Assembly: GCA_021324755.1 (NCBI GenBank)
Contig: JAJPIL010000008.1
Span: 1 to 64,000 of the forward strand
DNA from: Pseudomonadota bacterium
GTDB taxonomy: Bacteria > Desulfobacterota > Binatia > Binatales > Binataceae
Length of the DNA stretch: 64,000 bases
Direction of reading: 5' to 3'
The notes beneath the pieces are model-generated. The model was given only the letters and a program-made list of their open reading frames with translations, was not told the origin of the DNA and ran no database searches. The position numbers and the translations under genes were made by a program. Positions 55,285-64,000 of this stretch are shown here, in pieces. Numbering within the stretch: the stretch's first letter is position 1; each line of letters opens with the position of its first letter.

Positions 55285-55479
55285 GCGTTGTCTGTCCGAC
55301 AGGGTTAATAGGTCAGCTATGATTGTGGACCAACGGCGCTCGTACCGTACGGCTTATGCTTACAGAATCCGGATTGGAAGTTCTACGAATTCCGCGTTTG
55401 ATGTAAAATGAAGGTTGCCCTTGCTTCTTCGTTATCTATCAGGTCATAGTCGAGAATCGCGATCGAACGCCTTTGGTAT

Positions 55480-55562
55480 GCCGAGGTGGCGAAATGGCAG
55501 ACGCAGAGGACTCAAAATCCTCCGGGCGCAAGCCCGTGCGGGTTCAAATCCCGCCCTCGGCA
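55480..55562 (+). tRNA. tRNA-Leu (anticodon CAA)
   Basis: A class II tRNA with acceptor stem GCCGAGG/CCTCGGC, anticodon stem GAGGA/TCCTC with loop CTCAAAA (anticodon CAA), a long variable arm CGGGCGCAAGCCCGT and a T-arm GGTTCAAATCC. Discriminator A; CCA not encoded. Its 3' end marks the border to the decayed mobile region, consistent with a former attachment site; no direct repeat of the tRNA end was found downstream. Confidence 0.96.
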
Positions 55563-55674
55563 TTCCCAATAACCCCACGTAAAATAACGTCTTCTCCGTG
55601 ATACCCGAGACCTGCCTGCGCTACATGCCGCGTTTATCTTGCGCGCTTGTCCCCATTTCGCTCCACTGACCGGC

Positions 55675-55928
55675 GTGACGACGATAAGGAAGCGAAGCAA
55701 GAGCTGGCAGGTGATAGTCACCGGCGGTGATTCGAGCCGGTCTTTGTCAGCTTCGACACCAACACCCCGGCTGAGCGGTGGGCTGCCAAGCTTGCGCGCG
55801 AGCTTGGCAGGCGCCGGGTGCGGAAGAAGGCGGTGGCGCGCTGGCTTACGCAGCAGACCTCCGAGGCGCTCAAGGAGCTGTGCGCGCAGAAGACGCGACG
55901 CGATAGTGACGGCTCGGGCAACCCTTGA
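55675..55928 (+). pseudogene. integrase-like N-terminal fragment and second broken frame
   Basis: From GTG 55675 the frame reads TTIRKRSKSWQVIV, which is the typical opening of tyrosine integrases with an AP2-like arm-binding domain (ASIRKRGxSWQV). Homology ends after about 15 residues. Another frame then encodes DTNTPAERWAAKLAREL and further Arg/Lys-rich sequence up to TGA 55926-55928, of unknown origin. The adjacent tRNA-Leu supports the integrase reading, but the match is short. Confidence 0.35.
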
Positions 55929-56208
55929 GGGTAAGCTCGGCGCGCGGGCAGCCTAGGCGCAGTGGGGCGACAAGCCGATTCCTTTTCGTAGCAGGCAGGG
56001 TGCGGTTTGGAACTCGCGGCCGAGCTACGCGACGTCGCACACCGCACGAAGCGATGTGTAGCAGGTAATGTGATGCCCCTCTCCGGCATACACAGCTTCC
56101 TCGCTTCGCTGTTGCTAAAAGAAAGCCTCGGGGAAGAGCGACCCTTCGACAGAGTTGAGGACGGCTGCTTAGATTGGGTGCGCGATTTTGCGGGTAAGCA
56201 AGGTCGAG

Positions 56209-56740
56209 ATGACCGCGCCGCACGAGCCAGCGGCGGTTGCCGGCCATATTGCCCGTACCTGTGAGACGCCCAACGCCGATCCCGCTGGAGAAGTGCGCGT
56301 GCTAATCGGGCTTGACCCCGACGCGGACGCGATGGCGCTTATGCCCTAGGAGCGGCGGCCGGATGTCACCGTGGCGGTTGAGTTCCTGCTCAGCGCATCC
56401 CCTGTGTACTTCCGCTCGAGTGACCATAGCGCCGCCGGCACCTGAAGGAAGAAGCGGCTCGACGAATGGGTGGAGCTCAACCTTGAGTGACTTCAGGCGA
56501 GATACCGGGCACGCCTGGCTTACGCAAACCTGCATCTGGACGAGTCGGCGCCGCGTATTCCTGCGCTGGTGGTGCCGCTGGATGATAGAGGGCATCTTAA
56601 CGCCCGCGACCTTTTGGTGCCAAACCAGCTTGGCGCGCTTCAGACCGAGTATGCGCAAGCGATGGCGCCGCTTGGCTTGATACGCGGAGTTGCGGGGTCA
56701 AAGGCGCGCCATCTGCGCGGCGATACCGGCTATCTGTGCC
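56209..56740 (+). pseudogene. MobV/Pre plasmid relaxase, pseudogene
   Basis: A single frame from ATG 56209, interrupted by TAG 56347, TGA 56443 and TGA 56488, keeps the MobV (Pre) relaxase pattern: GHIARTCETPNADP, VAVEFLLSASPVYF, then a tryptophan-to-stop before LQARYRARLAYANLHLDES, and QTEYAQAMAPLGLIRGVAGSKARH. The metal-binding motif HxDExxPHxH reads HLDESAPRIP, so two histidines are also lost. It cannot nick DNA. It is clear evidence of an old mobilisable element at this locus. Confidence 0.8.
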
Positions 56741-57100
56741 AGCGCCGTGCGCTCATACCTGCGATTTCACCCCGGGTCTTGCAACCAGGCTTGCTCTACC
56801 CGCGGCGCACGCGTTCGGAAAAGATCACGCTGCGGCCACCGCTCGCCTTGCGGTTCGATAACCGTTCCCCATCGGGCAACGATGTGCATCTGCCTTTCGG
56901 CAAGGGGTACCGACGGTCCCCGCCCCTTGCCTTGCGTTCGCGGGATCAGAAGCGCACATCTCCGGAGATAGACTTGCCATGACGCTTGGGGGGCTATCTT
57001 GTAGCTAAGTGGGAGTGCGCCCGTGCCGGGTGAGCTGGCCCGTCGCCAAGCCAGGATGCTCGACTTGAGCACGTCCTTTCAATAGGAGGGCTTCGGATGG

Positions 57101-58096
57101 TTAGCGGGCTGCAGCAGGCTCAGTCGCGACTAGCGGCACGATGTTGTGACTGGGATGGCGTGACCGCTGAATTGCCGTCAGAACCTTCGTCGGTGCTTTG
57201 TCATGCTGGTGCTGGGGCGTGTAGAACCAGAAATTGATTGGCTCGGACGGGTCAGGCGTCCGCAACCCCTTTTTGTCGTCTAAAATCACTTTGAGCTTTT
57301 TCCGTCGGCACTGGTCGTGAAATTCCTTGAGAACCTTGAAACGAGCCTTTTCTTTATGGGAAAAGCTCTGACTTTTAGTGCTACCCGCGAATAGCTGGCG
57401 CTGATCCGAGTTGACGTCGAGCCATTCCCGGTACTTGGCGAAGTTGTGATGCGAGAATACGGCCAACCCAGCAAAAAGGTCTGCCAACTGTATCAGCGGA
57501 TATTTTCGCGAATCCACCGGCCTGAGTCTTTTGACCCAAAACTTTCCCAATTTCAATCTTTGCCCAAATGATATCCGGTTTCCAAGCGAAGGCTGAGGTT
57601 CCCCCCTCGGTTTTTGCGAACCCACCCTCCGGAGGCATTTTCTAATCGTTTTCCAATCGAATAGCGAGTTTTCATCCAGATAGAGGCTCCAAACCGCGTT
57701 GTCAGGCCAGCGGTATCCTAAAACGTTGTGGAAAAGGTGGTAATACATGCGCCCAAGGTTGGCTCTGTCATCCCGCCCTCGTATGTCGTGGCGAGAATCC
57801 TTGATATTCCAAACAAGCACGTCGATGCGCAGTGTCCCATTGCTCGCCTCTTCAATGGCGAGCTGGCAGAGTTCACGCGCTACGCCGCTTTGCCTCTCCC
57901 CTCGCAGTTCGCTCCACTTGAACTCTGACTCAGTTAGCAGCTTTCGAATCTTCTCATCTAGGCGCTTTCTATTCCCAGCCGGCGTGGTAACCAAGCAGAC
58001 GCTACGGAAATGTCCGACATTCCAGTTCGCCTCGTCTGCAAAGCCCACGTGGGTGGCGCTCGCGCGCCGCGAAGTCCGTTTGCCTGAAAGCTCCAT
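57101..58096 (-). CDS. DUF3800-type protein
   Basis: A 331-aa protein with the DUF3800 pattern: an acidic FADEANWN segment near the N-terminus (usual form Y-x-DESG), a central YYHLFHNVLGYRW, and the C-terminal YPLIQLADLFAGLA, all expected of this RNase H-like family often found in mobile and defence loci. ATG 58096 is preceded by TAGGAAAG at good spacing; the frame to 58120 is not used. Intact, unlike its neighbours. Function unknown; a nuclease-like defence or toxin role is inference. Confidence 0.75.
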   Translation of the reverse strand: MELSGKRTSRRASATHVGFADEANWNVGHFRSVCLVTTPAGNRKRLDEKIRKLLTESEFKWSELRGERQSGVARELCQLAIEEASNGTLRIDVLVWNIKDSRHDIRGRDDRANLGRMYYHLFHNVLGYRWPDNAVWSLYLDENSLFDWKTIRKCLRRVGSQKPRGEPQPSLGNRISFGQRLKLGKFWVKRLRPVDSRKYPLIQLADLFAGLAVFSHHNFAKYREWLDVNSDQRQLFAGSTKSQSFSHKEKARFKVLKEFHDQCRRKKLKVILDDKKGLRTPDPSEPINFWFYTPQHQHDKAPTKVLTAIQRSRHPSHNIVPLVATEPAAAR

Positions 58097-58111
58097 TGTC
58101 GCTTTCCTATT

Positions 58112-58131
58112 GTATATCACGTAAACTATAC
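58112..58131 (-). promoter_or_regulatory. AT-rich inverted repeat upstream of the DUF3800 gene
   Basis: GTATATCACGTAAACTATAC has GTATA/TATAC arms and lies 15 bases before the DUF3800 start, inside a run of related TAC/TATAC words to about 58215. It overlaps the likely -10 element (TATACAAT on the minus strand), so a repressor operator is plausible. No -35 is clear. Confidence 0.35.
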
Positions 58132-61100
58132 ACTATACCTACCCCATAGAGAAGCTCGACTGATATGCTTGAAAACACCATATTACATTTTACGTAGAGC
58201 ATACATTATTACATAAATTCGCCGGAGTGGCTTTGGAGAACTCAAGTTCTCTAACCGCTGTGCGGTTTATCCAGGTCTTCGAGTTGAGTAAGGGTCATCT
58301 TTGCCAAAGCGGGATCGAGCGTTGTATTGTACAGCGATCGCGAGCGATTCTGGGGGCTGTTTGGTCAACCACGTGAACTCTGGCGGTCAGGCGCGAGCAC
58401 AGGCATCATACACCAGAAATCTCGACCTCCGGGTGTCTGTCGGGCGCGACGAGGTGCATGCTATTGGGCGGAGCGCGAGCCGCTTCACCGATAATCTAGA
58501 GGTGCGGAACAAACCAGTTCAGCGGCAGCTCGTCCTGTTCGAACGCGGCCCGGCCCCGATTGGCCTAGCGCTCGGTCACGGCGATGGCTTCCAGAATTGC
58601 CTTGCACGCGCTCTGCCGGGTCTTTCATACGGGTACGGCTTTTTGCGGCAGGCGGTCACCGAGGTGCCGCCTGAGCGTGCGCTCCGTGACAATATAGGTG
58701 CGGCAGCGGAGCAGGCGTTTGAGTTCGTGTTGAGGTCCCCCGAGATCGAGCGCAGAACGTCCGGGCTCCATTCTTCACCAGGAAGTTTAGAATCACTGGC
58801 CTAGTGCGATTCACCTTTTACAACTGAACCGAAAGACCCGCACGTTGCAGTCGCCGAGCCGGGCGGACACACGCAAGATCTCCTCGCGCTTTTCTTTCAG
58901 GAGTTGATCAAATCCCAAAGCCGAGCCTCGTTAAAAATTTTCCGGATGGGCTCCTTAAGCTTCCGCGCGTGGTTCAGCTGTTCGGCAAGCCTCCTCACCG
59001 ATCGCTGAATCCTTTGGTCGAACGGCTTACCGTAATTCTCGACCTCCTCGGCGCTAACGTAGCGCTCCGGTGTCGGCGCGTAGCGTTGCGCGGTGACCTC
59101 CTTGTCGTCGCGCTTTTGCAAAGGCTTGGAACGTCCTCATTCTCACCCGCGTTGTTGCAGCTGTGGAGGCATCGTCGGTTGCCACGATGCGCTATTCGTC
59201 TTTCTGCGTTCGGGTATCGGGTGAATCGAAAAAATTCCGGGGTCGAGGAAATGGGCGCTAGCTGGTAACTTCGCCGACTTTTGCACGTCCGACATGCATG
59301 GCAAAACGTCGGCTCTTCGTATCACCTATTGCGATGCCTCGGGTGTCTACTTACGCTGCGCTTGCCATCACAGAGGGCCGCGCCAAGCATACGCTTTTCG
59401 GTAGAGCCTGCCGACCCACCGAGAAAAACGTTTGCTGCAACGCTTCTCGGCTGTTCGCATACTCGCACGGATGCACGCAAAGAGGCCACACGAGCACGCG
59501 GTAGGTGCCTCGGGATATCACCCTTTGAATTCGAGGAAAACCTGTCCGTGCGCAACCAACTTAAGCTCGCCGCTTCGCCGACCTCCGGGTGCCAAGGACC
59601 ACATGCGCCGACCAGGTATTTTTGGCTTGCGCCGCCACGTCTTGGTCAGAGCCTTGCCCTGTTTCCACGAGCGGTGCCTGCCCCCCCAACCATCGGATGG
59701 TGGTGAGAAGGGTTCGCTCTCGAGGGAATTAGTCAGGCTTTTGTCGCCAATCGTCTAAAGTTTCCCTTCCTTTCACTTTCACCTTGGTGAGCTTCCCCGA
59801 TCCTCTTCGGCGAGCTTCTTCCACGCTTCTGCGGCGTTACGGCCTTAGCCGTCCCGCGGGCAGTTTCCAGTACGGCACAGGATGTCTCGGGTGCGGCAAG
59901 ATGCCGGGCTTAAACCGGCTCCGAATTGGGTTGCCAGCGTCTTTCGAGCCCTGGAGGGGCGTATAGCTACGGCTGGTTGACGCCGCGTTCGGCGCCTGGC
60001 TGCGCCTCTGGCTGACTTTGCAGTCGAGAGTGTCAACTTATCTGAGCCGAGCGCAGTTCATTACATCGCGTCGATCGCCTCGCCACCGTCAAGCTCGTCT
60101 CCAGACAACGAGCGTCCCGTCATCCGTGCGACCCTCCGTTGTAAGATATAATCGCTTCGCCTAACGTAGCGCGCATTCACACCATGCTTTTTGGCGCGCG
60201 CATCGTCGTGTCCTGTTTTCAGCTTTCAGCTGACCGCACTCCCTTACCGCTCAAGCTTGGTATGCCTCATCCCTTTCTTGCGTCACATAGTCCCCAGCAC
60301 TGGTCCTTCCACGCAAGTGCTAGCGCTCTTATTGTCACAAGTGACATTCACCCAGCGATTGCCTAAAGAATTAATAGCGCTTTCGAAGTCTTTTATTGGG
60401 GGGCAACTTTTGAAGAGACACGTTGCTTCAAGTTCGGGCGCTATTTCGGATAAGTCAACGGAACCCAACCGAAGTCATTTTCGTAGTCGCTTGCGGAGGT
60501 GCCACAAGAAGGCGGCCAGACGAAGCATCGAGCTCCTACCGGTGTTAACCTACTTTCTCGCCGACCCTATAGCCGCGTCGGCATCAGGTTCCTACAGGTT
60601 GTTGGCGCGCCCATCCGAGCAGTTTTCCCGGCATTCACGGAGCTTGCATCTGGACGCGGCAGTGGATCATCTTGCATGTCTAGAACTTTCTGGCGTGTCT
60701 TAGGCAGCTCTCGGGAGTGAGGGCCGCTGATACGTCCACTCCTACACACACAAAAGATTCGCCTCCGGCTGGAGACGATCGCCGTTCTGAAGGTCCGCCG
60801 AAAGCTAGACGCGATTTATTTGAACTGAGCGCACACAGGGCTTAAACCAAGCCTGACGAAAGGTCGCTAAGCGCGACCCGCGTTCAGCAAGAACCAAGTA
60901 TCTTATCGACACTAGGTCGTACTTTCGCCGTAAGGCGTAGCAGCCTTCAACAACTTCTCGACTTTGCCGCTTCGATCGCTTGCTCAATGCAATTCCTAAC
61001 CGGGGCACGAGCGCTGTCGGGTGCGCTTCGGCTTGTGGTGCGCGAAGACGTGGCACAAGAAACCTATCGAGCGTACCAGGAGCGCGTTCTGACAGGGAGC

Positions 61101-62647
61101 AGTTTCGGAAAGCTGGGGAAGCAGCACAAGCATGTTCCCGTCAAAATCAAAGCGTGAGCAAGCGTAGCGGTGAACGGAGTGATCATCACCTCCAACGGGT
61201 GTCATAACGTTCGGTTACGAAGTACTTATCGCCTGAAAAACGAGCTTAAGAGTGGCCGAGCGACGCGATCCTTTTGGTTGCAGAGCTGAGCGTCGCACTG
61301 GACAGGAATCACGCCATCGACCGAACCGGCTAGAATTGCGAATGAGCGACACCGGCGCTGGGCATTCGCGACCATGAGCTCTTCTGAGCCTAAACATGCC
61401 GGCGAGCTCGTTCAAAGCTGGTTTGAACCCGGCGTCATACCGTGCCTAAGACCCTTTACTTCATGTTGGGCTAGAAAATGCACGTAAAAGCCGAGCAATC
61501 GCGGGACGCTGGGGAATGCCTATCGAAAAGGCGTGGAATAAGCCGCCAAAATGAGAGGGATCCGCTCTAAACCGGCGCTGCTCTGCCTCAAGAACTGGGC
61601 CCATTCCCACAAAGCACCGCTTTCTTTGCGCAGTGGCTATGCCAAGGCAGACACACGCCAGCCAACTGTGAGCCAGGAAGTATATGAGTGAGCCGCGACG
61701 AGGTTGGAGCGAGCAGCCTATTGCCTGCACAAATCGACGATACGTACCATCACGCACGCAGCGACGCCGAAGAACTGCTGCATCAAAGTGCCCTTTGGAA
61801 CGAGAGCTTATGCACACCGCGCTTTGTCGTTTTGCGCGGTTGATGAGCGGTATACAAACAGAAGGCACTCAGGCGGGATAACAAAGCTGATTAGCTACGG
61901 TGTGACAAATGCCTACTCAACCCGGATTGAAGTGGGGACTGGTGTAGGACATTAGAGATTGACCTTCGCGGGCTTTGAGGAGAAACAAAATGGAAAAGCC
62001 TAGCGCCTGCCAGACATAGTCTCGGGCAGCTAGCGAACGTCGTCAACATAAAGCTTAGCTGGCCTAGGCTTCGGACGTTACGCCGCTTCTCCAAGAACGC
62101 GTTCCACAGCAAAGCAGATCGACGGAACAATAGGAGGATTCTCCTGCAGGAATCGAAAGTTCCAACAGCCGCACCGAGGGTAGGCAGGCGTCGGACCGAA
62201 AAATCGCCTCAACCATTATGTGATTCAAGCTAAGAAAAAGCCTATGTGTGTCCCCGCCTGCACGGGATTTGTTCGGCTTCCGCAGCTTGTCTCCCTTTGT
62301 CCAGCCGTCAAGAATGCCGCTTAGGTGTCGATAAGTGGTATGCGCTCAGTGCGAGGCGATGGGATAATCGCCAGGCGAGACACGCACCTGCAGAGTGGAA
62401 TCTACGTGGCCACGAACCAGCCTCTAACGACTTGACCTCCATCTAAGCTTGCAGCTAGCCTCTGAACCCTTCCGTCCTTGTGCTGGAAAGAAGATGTCGG
62501 CAATTAGCTGAACCAAATTCGCAAGACCGTAAAGAGAACTGCGGTCGTTGCTTCGCTACTACTGCATGACGCAGGTCGCACCACCGCTGGGTTACACGCA
62601 CCAAGTTGAATAAGAGGCGACACCTGCCGTGCCGGCGCCCTTAAATA
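58121..62647. other. 4.5 kb gene-poor region
   Basis: Apart from the HsdM remnant at 58897-59121 I recognise no gene, RNA, CRISPR array or insertion-sequence end on either strand. Open frames are short, overlapping and without family motifs; 58301-58804 (plus) is the longest but has no codon signal I trust. AT-rich at the left end. Likely decayed accessory DNA; a non-coding RNA or very divergent genes cannot be excluded by eye. Confidence 0.45.
58897..59121 (-). pseudogene. type I restriction methylase (HsdM) C-terminal remnant
   Basis: A 74-codon minus-strand frame reads YAPTPERYVSAEEVENYGKPFD and RRLAEQLNHARKLKEPIRKI, which closely follows the extreme C-terminus of type I HsdM methylases (YVLTPGRYVGAEEVEDDGEPFE, then a helical ending). 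The body of HsdM is not found upstream in any frame, and no hsdS or hsdR is seen, so this is a fragment. Confidence 0.6.
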
Positions 62648-63322
62648 TCATGAGCTTTCTCGTGCCGCCTCGTAGATTGAGTCAAACATTTCTTTATAAT
62701 AGTGAAAGCCTAGCTTTGCGGCGCGCATGATCTTCGCTTTGGCCGTTTCATCCGTGGCATGTTTGGCTATGCGCCAAAAGTGCAAATCAACGTGTTCTTG
62801 GTCAGCTTTCGCGTGAACTCGGAAAAAAGCCACTTGGTCTTCGTTAAAGTGGTAATGTGAGGCGAGTCCAGCAGCGATACGCTCGCATTGGTGAGCGAAC
62901 ATGCCTTCTGGCAATCCTGCTCCCGCAGCAACCTCTCCCGGGCTTGCCATAAAGCTTAGTCGGTAAAAATAGTTCGTAAAGTTCAACACCCCAGGTCTGG
63001 GCTCAGTTTGCTCGAGATCTGCTTCCTCAATACCTAACGCATGAGTGAACTGCAGCCACAATTTCATGTGGCCAGCCTCTTCGATGGCATGAGCCAGGTT
63101 GCGCTTTACTGACTCCAGGTCAGGGCTGCGTACGACACTTACAGCCGAGAAGCGGTACTCCGCTTCAACCAGGAAGTGGTGAAATTGCTCGGCAAAGACG
63201 ATTAGCTGCTGCTTAGTAAGACTTCCTCGCGCTATCTCATCAATAAGCGGATGATATACCAAAAGATTATACTGAGAGTTGAAATAGTCGCTGATTTTTT
63301 TAAGAAAGCTGTCGTTCTCCAT
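62648..63322 (-). CDS. heme-oxygenase-fold diiron-type oxygenase (PqqC/TenA/UndA-like)
   Basis: About 224 aa of the heme-oxygenase-like diiron (HDO) superfamily. Ligand pattern seen (numbered from an upstream TTG, 63340): E88-x2-H91 in EEAGHMKLW, E153 in HQCERIAAGL, and H176/D180/H183 in FFRVHAKADQEHVD. Family members include UndA (fatty acid to 1-alkene), CADD and BesC; PqqC lacks the metal. ATG 63322 is the start chosen. It follows an adenylating-enzyme gene by about 70 bases on the same strand, suggesting an acyl-activation plus oxygenation unit. Substrate unknown. Confidence 0.8.
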   Translation of the reverse strand: MENDSFLKKISDYFNSQYNLLVYHPLIDEIARGSLTKQQLIVFAEQFHHFLVEAEYRFSAVSVVRSPDLESVKRNLAHAIEEAGHMKLWLQFTHALGIEEADLEQTEPRPGVLNFTNYFYRLSFMASPGEVAAGAGLPEGMFAHQCERIAAGLASHYHFNEDQVAFFRVHAKADQEHVDLHFWRIAKHATDETAKAKIMRAAKLGFHYYKEMFDSIYEAARESS

Positions 63323-63391
63323 CGCTCGGTCCGCTTTCAATAGAGTGTCATCTTTTTCGGCTTTATAACCGAAGACTCTCCGGCGCGTTCT

Positions 63392-64000
63392 TTAATCCAG
63401 TAGGTAATACAGTCCGTTTGCGTCCATCATGGCAAGAAGGCCATTGAAAAACCAGCGCCGCCTGAGCCTCTGCGAGGTAATCTTGGGATCGTCATACTCC
63501 ACCATAAGATGAGAGGCTTTTATTTCCACCCCGGCATACTCGAGCAGCTCCCATGGTACCTCTATTGGTTCCCGGCTCTTGGGGTCGACGGGTCGCAATT
63601 CGACATTGGTGATGGGGATGCCTGCCGATTCTGTAACATACCAACTGGGATGCGTTGCTATGGCTGGGCCTGTTTCCGGCATTCCAAATAATGTGATGAT
63701 AGGCCGCCGAAAAAGGTTCCGCAAAGATTCCCGCACGCGGGCTGAAAAAGCGCTTTCGATCGCCATCACGACCCATTTTGCCTTTTCCCTCAACTCCCTG
63801 CGCTGGCGCGGGCCTACCTCGCTTATCAGCTCGCCTGCCTGTTCGGGGGTTACAAACAGGGCCTCGCCGTCGAAGTTCAACATATTTTGCACGAGGCTTT
63901 GCGCACTACTCGTAGCATTTACAATCGCCGTACCCCCTTGGTACATGGCAAGCAAGGCGCTATAAAGTCCGTGCCAAGTCGTGGGATGATTAGCTACAAC
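63392..64000 (-). CDS. AMP-dependent synthetase/ligase, partial at window edge
   Basis: The minus-strand frame runs off the right end of the window, so the N-terminus is missing. What is seen belongs to the ANL adenylating superfamily: NHPTTWHGLYSALLAMYQGGTAIV near the edge, and FGMPETGPAIATHPSW as the core adenylate motif, then WFFNGLLAMMDANGLYYLLD (usual form WxxTGDxxxxDxxGYYxxxGR). It stops exactly there, losing the C-terminal subdomain with the catalytic Lys. The shifted frame continues ERAGESSVIKPKKM, resembling that subdomain's start, so a frameshift is possible. Confidence 0.75.
   Translation of the reverse strand, partial: VVANHPTTWHGLYSALLAMYQGGTAIVNATSSAQSLVQNMLNFDGEALFVTPEQAGELISEVGPRQRRELREKAKWVVMAIESAFSARVRESLRNLFRRPIITLFGMPETGPAIATHPSWYVTESAGIPITNVELRPVDPKSREPIEVPWELLEYAGVEIKASHLMVEYDDPKITSQRLRRRWFFNGLLAMMDANGLYYLLD

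Follow-up and report, generated by a model that had tools for sequence, protein, structure and literature searches.

A heme-oxygenase-fold dimetal protein ends a conserved CoA-type gene cluster beside a pseudo-adenylation protein

A gene near the right end of a 64,000-nt window encodes a protein of the heme-oxygenase-like dimetal type (HDO). Tentatively, we consider this protein to be an O2-dependent dimetal oxidase whose gene closes a cluster dedicated to carboxylic acids linked to CoA. Sequence comparison and structure prediction establish its fold, its 3H/3C ligand set, the conservation of HDO and cluster in two genera and the loss of the ATP motifs in its ANL-fold neighbor. The window, i.e., the whole stretch analyzed, corresponds to positions 1-64000 of contig C26 from a 3.07-Mb assembly rated 95% complete (G000), and this contig runs on to position 77,902. 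The sequence-only reading had taken the pairing of an adenylating enzyme with an HDO-type protein to suggest an uncharacterized small-molecule or lipid pathway, and had suggested extending the contig to the right. This extension revealed an intact, conserved cluster: HDO is part of an uncharacterized CoA-type cluster, but its partner is not an adenylating enzyme.

The cluster is a ten-gene run on the minus strand in which HDO is last and adjoins the gene of the ANL-fold protein (table 1). The two ORFs are separated by 51-69 nt, confirming the two same-strand genes with a short gap reported initially. HDO is 230 aa long from the listed TTG at 63340 and 224 aa long from an ATG at 63322. The latter is the likelier start because the purine-rich stretch before it is common to G000 and a relative from a second genus (G051); residues are numbered here from the TTG. 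The full gene of the neighbor encodes 400 aa (contig 63392-64594, i.e., L002:5393-6595) and reads past the window edge, and reading it whole ruled out that the ORF is short merely because the window cuts it. To the left of HDO, about 7 kb (55479-62640) following a tRNA-Leu gene contain few genes and resemble what is left of an integrated element. An rRNA operon in a 4.5-kb gene-poor stretch on this side was ruled out, as Rfam shows a tRNA only. The description of the locus as the edge of a decayed region holds for the left side but not for the right, where the cluster is intact and conserved.

Table 1. Features at the HDO locus, the cluster genes being listed rightward from HDO
Feature	Position	Strand	Remarks
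Mob_Pre (plasmid recombination) fragment	56491-56979		Within gene-poor stretch left of HDO
DUF3800 ORF	57101-58120		Within gene-poor stretch left of HDO
HDO	62648..63340	-	Pfam, ligand columns, AlphaFold2, CADD/UndA fold matches, G051 orthologue
Pseudo-ANL (3' half only in window)	63392..64000	-	Full reading, AMP-binding match, motif alignments, orthologues in G051 and G015
PaaK-like protein		-
314-aa degenerate ANL		-
CopD-like membrane protein		-
Nitroreductase		-
120-aa ORF		-
501-aa protein	L002:11255-12760 (contig 69254-70759)	-	No Pfam or NCBIfam match
CoA-transferase subunit B		-
CoA-transferase subunit A		-
MqnC-like radical SAM enzyme		Other strand	Beyond the run
Thiolase		Other strand	Beyond the run, after radical SAM enzyme
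RibF		-	After thiolase

The HDO protein matches the Pfam families TENA_THI-4 (E 1.5e-17, top match) and Haem_oxygenas_2 (E 4.4e-14). An alignment of 33 family members places the six ligand columns at E88, H91, E145, H176, D180 and H183, in line with the E-H-E-H-(D/E)-H motif described for HDOs (PMC11363339; PMC13108848). This 3H/3C set is complete, as the sequence-only reading had claimed, and invariant between the orthologues of G000 and G051. The structure prediction called for by the same reading yielded a confident AlphaFold2 model (mean pLDDT 95.4) with a heme-oxygenase-like helical fold. The nearest solved fold is CADD (Z 25.2, 1.9 Å, 24% identity), followed by the fatty-acid decarboxylase UndA (PDB 4wwj, 6p5q; Z 23.1, 12% identity), which has the same 3H/3C kind of ligands. 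Further matches include FlcD, PqqC and HrmI. FlcD, HrmI, BesC and other HDOs share the fold (Z about 22) at 12-21% identity, and FlcD lacks two ligands that the present protein possesses (PMC11363339). By analogy with SznF, it is possible that E59/E61 supply a seventh ligand. Sequence and model together speak for a dimetal (probably diiron) oxidase that would activate O2. Functions are known for about a dozen HDOs of a predicted superfamily of >10,000 members; the substrates of those characterized are for the most part fatty acids or amino acids (PMC13108848).

The 400-aa neighbor matches the AMP-binding domain over its central part, and a PDB sequence search at 1e-5 returned no match. We aligned this protein with nine homologues and one full-length ligase from a relative. 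In the neighbor and all nine homologues, an HSH-type stretch (HTH in one protein) stands in place of the A3 motif TSGTTGPPKG, there is no A7 Asp (NGL/TGR instead of TGD) and the proteins (384-412 aa) end before the C-terminal domain with the catalytic Lys. The neighbor thus has none of the three features of ANL adenylating enzymes and acyl-CoA ligases: A3 loop (SGTTGxPK), A7 Asp and C-terminal domain. Judged by these motifs, it is a pseudo-adenylation protein (pseudo-ANL) and not a competent adenylating enzyme, and its initial designation as an ANL ligase must be abandoned. The 314-aa protein, a truncated PaaK homologue likewise without the A3 loop, is a second degenerate ANL. Between these two lies a 450-aa PaaK-like protein that is homologous over nearly its full length to PaaK phenylacetate-CoA ligase/2-hydroxyisobutyryl-CoA synthetase (E 1e-32). 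It carries an A3-like TSGTHG, the A7 Asp and the C-terminal Lys, all within altered motifs (TSGTHGFHT, FNCEDLG, RWKG); its A3 and A5 differ from those of PaaK, and it scores 101.5 bits against the PaaK model (cut-off 646). It is the best candidate for a ligase, and the only plausible one of the set. In another genome (G025), the PaaK-like frame (L053:10493-12418) is 641 aa long. Its roughly 200 extra N-terminal residues occupy the place of the degenerate-ANL gene that is separate in other genomes, possibly as a result of fusion.

The kinships of the PaaK-like protein, the CoA-transferase and the thiolase favor a CoA-linked acid pathway. Subunit A of the CoA-transferase is homologous to glutaconate CoA-transferase GctA and to AibA (E 3e-31 and 3e-26) and subunit B carries a CoA_trans domain, but both score far under the cut-offs of the NCBIfam models that they touch. 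The thiolase is of the SCP2/lipid-transfer type, and the MqnC-like radical SAM enzyme reaches 309.8 bits against a cut-off of 428. The 501-aa protein is present in 19 of the 148 genomes of the class; its gene is split into two frames in G051. The model obtained for it has low confidence (pLDDT 70.6), and its best Foldseek and profile matches are nitroreductases, both weak (best E 0.0025 and 0.014).

The HDO itself was detected in only two of the 148 class genomes (G000 and G051), the next match dropping from E 1e-143 to 1e-22. In G051, the ten genes of the run keep their order, but the radical SAM gene lies within the run and the thiolase directly after HDO. In both genomes HDO is last and next to the pseudo-ANL gene. 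The pair is not a chance association, since G051 has the two genes in the same arrangement. The two genomes share 58-60% identity for HDO, 45-47% for the pseudo-ANL, 73-75% for the CoA-transferase and 77% for the nitroreductase. A scan of contigs with HDO yielded a single locus, on the 48,447-base contig JAJYYI010000003.1 ("Deltaproteobacteria bacterium isolate FK3.bin99"), whose content matches G051:C8. Viral contigs contained no relative of HDO and plasmids contained two weak haloarchaeal TenA matches and nothing else; a literature search of incomplete coverage found no paper on the HDO/ANL pairing.

The link between HDO and the ANL-fold proteins is narrow: of the homologous ANL-fold loci detected across the family and its near relatives, those of G000 and G051 alone have this HDO. 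No HDO of this type accompanies the more distant pseudo-ANL homologues (26-31% identity). A third genome (G015) contains a broken copy of the cluster without HDO. Against our reading, HDO occurs in just two class genomes and other copies of the ANL set do without it, so that the core module does not require HDO. HDO might alternatively be a passenger, i.e., a separate small-molecule gene that sits beside the ANL cluster and acts independently, which we consider possible but somewhat unlikely. Its last position would fit, as would its absence from G015 and from the more distant ANL copies and its faster divergence relative to the CoA-transferase and nitroreductase genes. However, its strand, its short gap and its neighbor are kept in two genera even though the radical SAM and thiolase genes have been rearranged. 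The absence from G015 is weak evidence, because its pseudo-ANL gene is flanked by a DDE transposase and a transposase-like ORF.

Homologous sets in three other genomes without this HDO (G014, G038 and G042; L055, L068 and L069) show a different context: the pseudo-ANL/PaaK-like genes lie beside two large molybdenum enzymes of the DMSO-reductase family. The two enzymes of the G014 locus are related to each other and are accompanied by U32 family, MoaA-like, DUF1329 and MqnC-like genes; the neighbors in G038 and G042 are mostly the same. The molybdenum enzyme that was scanned resembles ethylbenzene dehydrogenase (EbdA-like), with 729 bits for TIGR03479 and 580 for EbdA, under both cut-offs. It is possible that this set represents an anaerobic hydrocarbon-oxidation locus.

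For the cluster of G000 and G051, we propose that the PaaK-like protein would activate an acid, with the two degenerate ANL proteins perhaps serving, as their context suggests, as its non-catalytic partners. The GctA/B-like CoA-transferase and the thiolase would then move or split the acyl-CoA, and the nitroreductase-type proteins may, again guessing from context, handle electrons. HDO would use O2 to oxidize a C-H or C-C bond in the acid or in one of its derivatives. The altered A3 motif of the PaaK-like protein (TSGTHGFHT) speaks against this scheme. The relatives, in which EbdA-like enzymes stand beside the homologous ANL/PaaK set, incline us to think that a hydrocarbon-derived acid is broken down rather than a natural product made. 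The opposite view, in which the cluster is biosynthetic and HDO introduces an N-O bond, an alkene or a rearranged group into a small natural product, appears unlikely. It would agree with the natural-product pathways in which most characterized HDOs are found (PMC13108848) and with the PaaK-like, radical SAM and flavoprotein genes of the cluster. Yet the genes read rightward of HDO revealed no carrier protein, synthase, transporter or resistance gene, and the presence of a CoA-transferase and a thiolase agrees better with breakdown.

Among the NCBIfam models, that of CADD (TIGR04305) ranks first for HDO (66.7 bits, cut-off 200); BesC (NF042919) gives 22.4 bits against 500. CADD/PabS proteins (PDB 1rcw, 8va9, 9pj4) share with HDO the fold (Z 25, 1.8-1.9 Å) and the six metal ligands. 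However, they possess Tyr27, Tyr43 and Lys152 where HDO presents Ile33, Phe49 and Ile155, as does its G051 orthologue. Tyr27 and Lys152 are the sacrificed residues of CADD, and the Nitrosomonas enzyme requires the corresponding Tyr25, Tyr41 and Lys159 (PMC11965152). In a tree that includes CADD, PabS and 3dde as partial stretches and from which UndA is absent, HDO and the G051 protein form their own branch (97/85) outside the CADD/PabS clade. Constraining this branch to the clade was weakly rejected (p-AU 0.041) in the presence of long branches. Because of these long branches, we used the tree solely for the separation from CADD/PabS. CADD membership was ruled out by the residues, the model score and the tree. 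As far as these residues and comparisons indicate, HDO does not belong to the self-sacrificing p-aminobenzoate (pABA) synthases of the CADD type.

Five CADD-like relatives keep the Tyr, Tyr and Lys residues, including the sacrificial Tyr and Lys: L008, L011, L012 and L021 in the same family and L017 in the same class. In the three genomes with CADD-like proteins that were checked (G004, G007 and G021), a TrpE-like protein was the only chorismate-binding enzyme found, a pattern consistent with self-sacrificing pABA synthesis in the lineage.

HDO could still be the pABA source of its genome if it were a CADD relative using a free aromatic substrate instead of its own tyrosine. We consider this very unlikely, even with CADD as its closest solved structure and best NCBIfam match and with HDO as the sole Haem_oxygenas_2 protein found in G000. 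Also in its favor, both G000 and G051 have a dihydropteroate synthase (DHPS), while PabB was sought in these two genomes and in G015 and found in none. Of chorismate-binding enzymes, G051 yielded TrpE alone and G000 yielded two: a TrpE encoded next to trpD, and an isochorismate synthase with a MenD-like frame after it. A CADD-like protein bearing Tyr27 was likewise not found in the three genomes, all of which have DHPS. Against HDO as the answer, G015 also combines DHPS with the lack of PabB and has no HDO match. The replaced residues and the position outside the CADD/PabS clade argue in the same direction, and the gene sits in a CoA cluster and not among folate genes. Finally, a metal-free TenA or PqqC relative is hardly credible: TENA_THI-4 is the top Pfam match and TenA and PqqC structures superpose well, but all six ligands are present in HDO and its orthologue, and the scores for TenA (TIGR04306; 30 bits, cut-off 130) and PqqC (TIGR02111; 21.7 bits, cut-off 240) are low.

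Our preferred reading remains an oxidase acting in a CoA-linked carboxylic-acid pathway. A bolder reading, which we regard as improbable, is that HDO represents a new subfamily with an undescribed HDO reaction, associated with a three-part ANL assembly of a PaaK-like ligase and two adenylation-domain homologues that do not use ATP. The conserved pseudo-ANL proteins pose a separate question, namely why these bacteria retain adenylation-domain homologues unable to adenylate. These results tie a conserved HDO to a cluster of the CoA-transferase/PaaK-like kind, in a lineage that has received little study, and provide a defined gene set in which a new HDO reaction may be sought.
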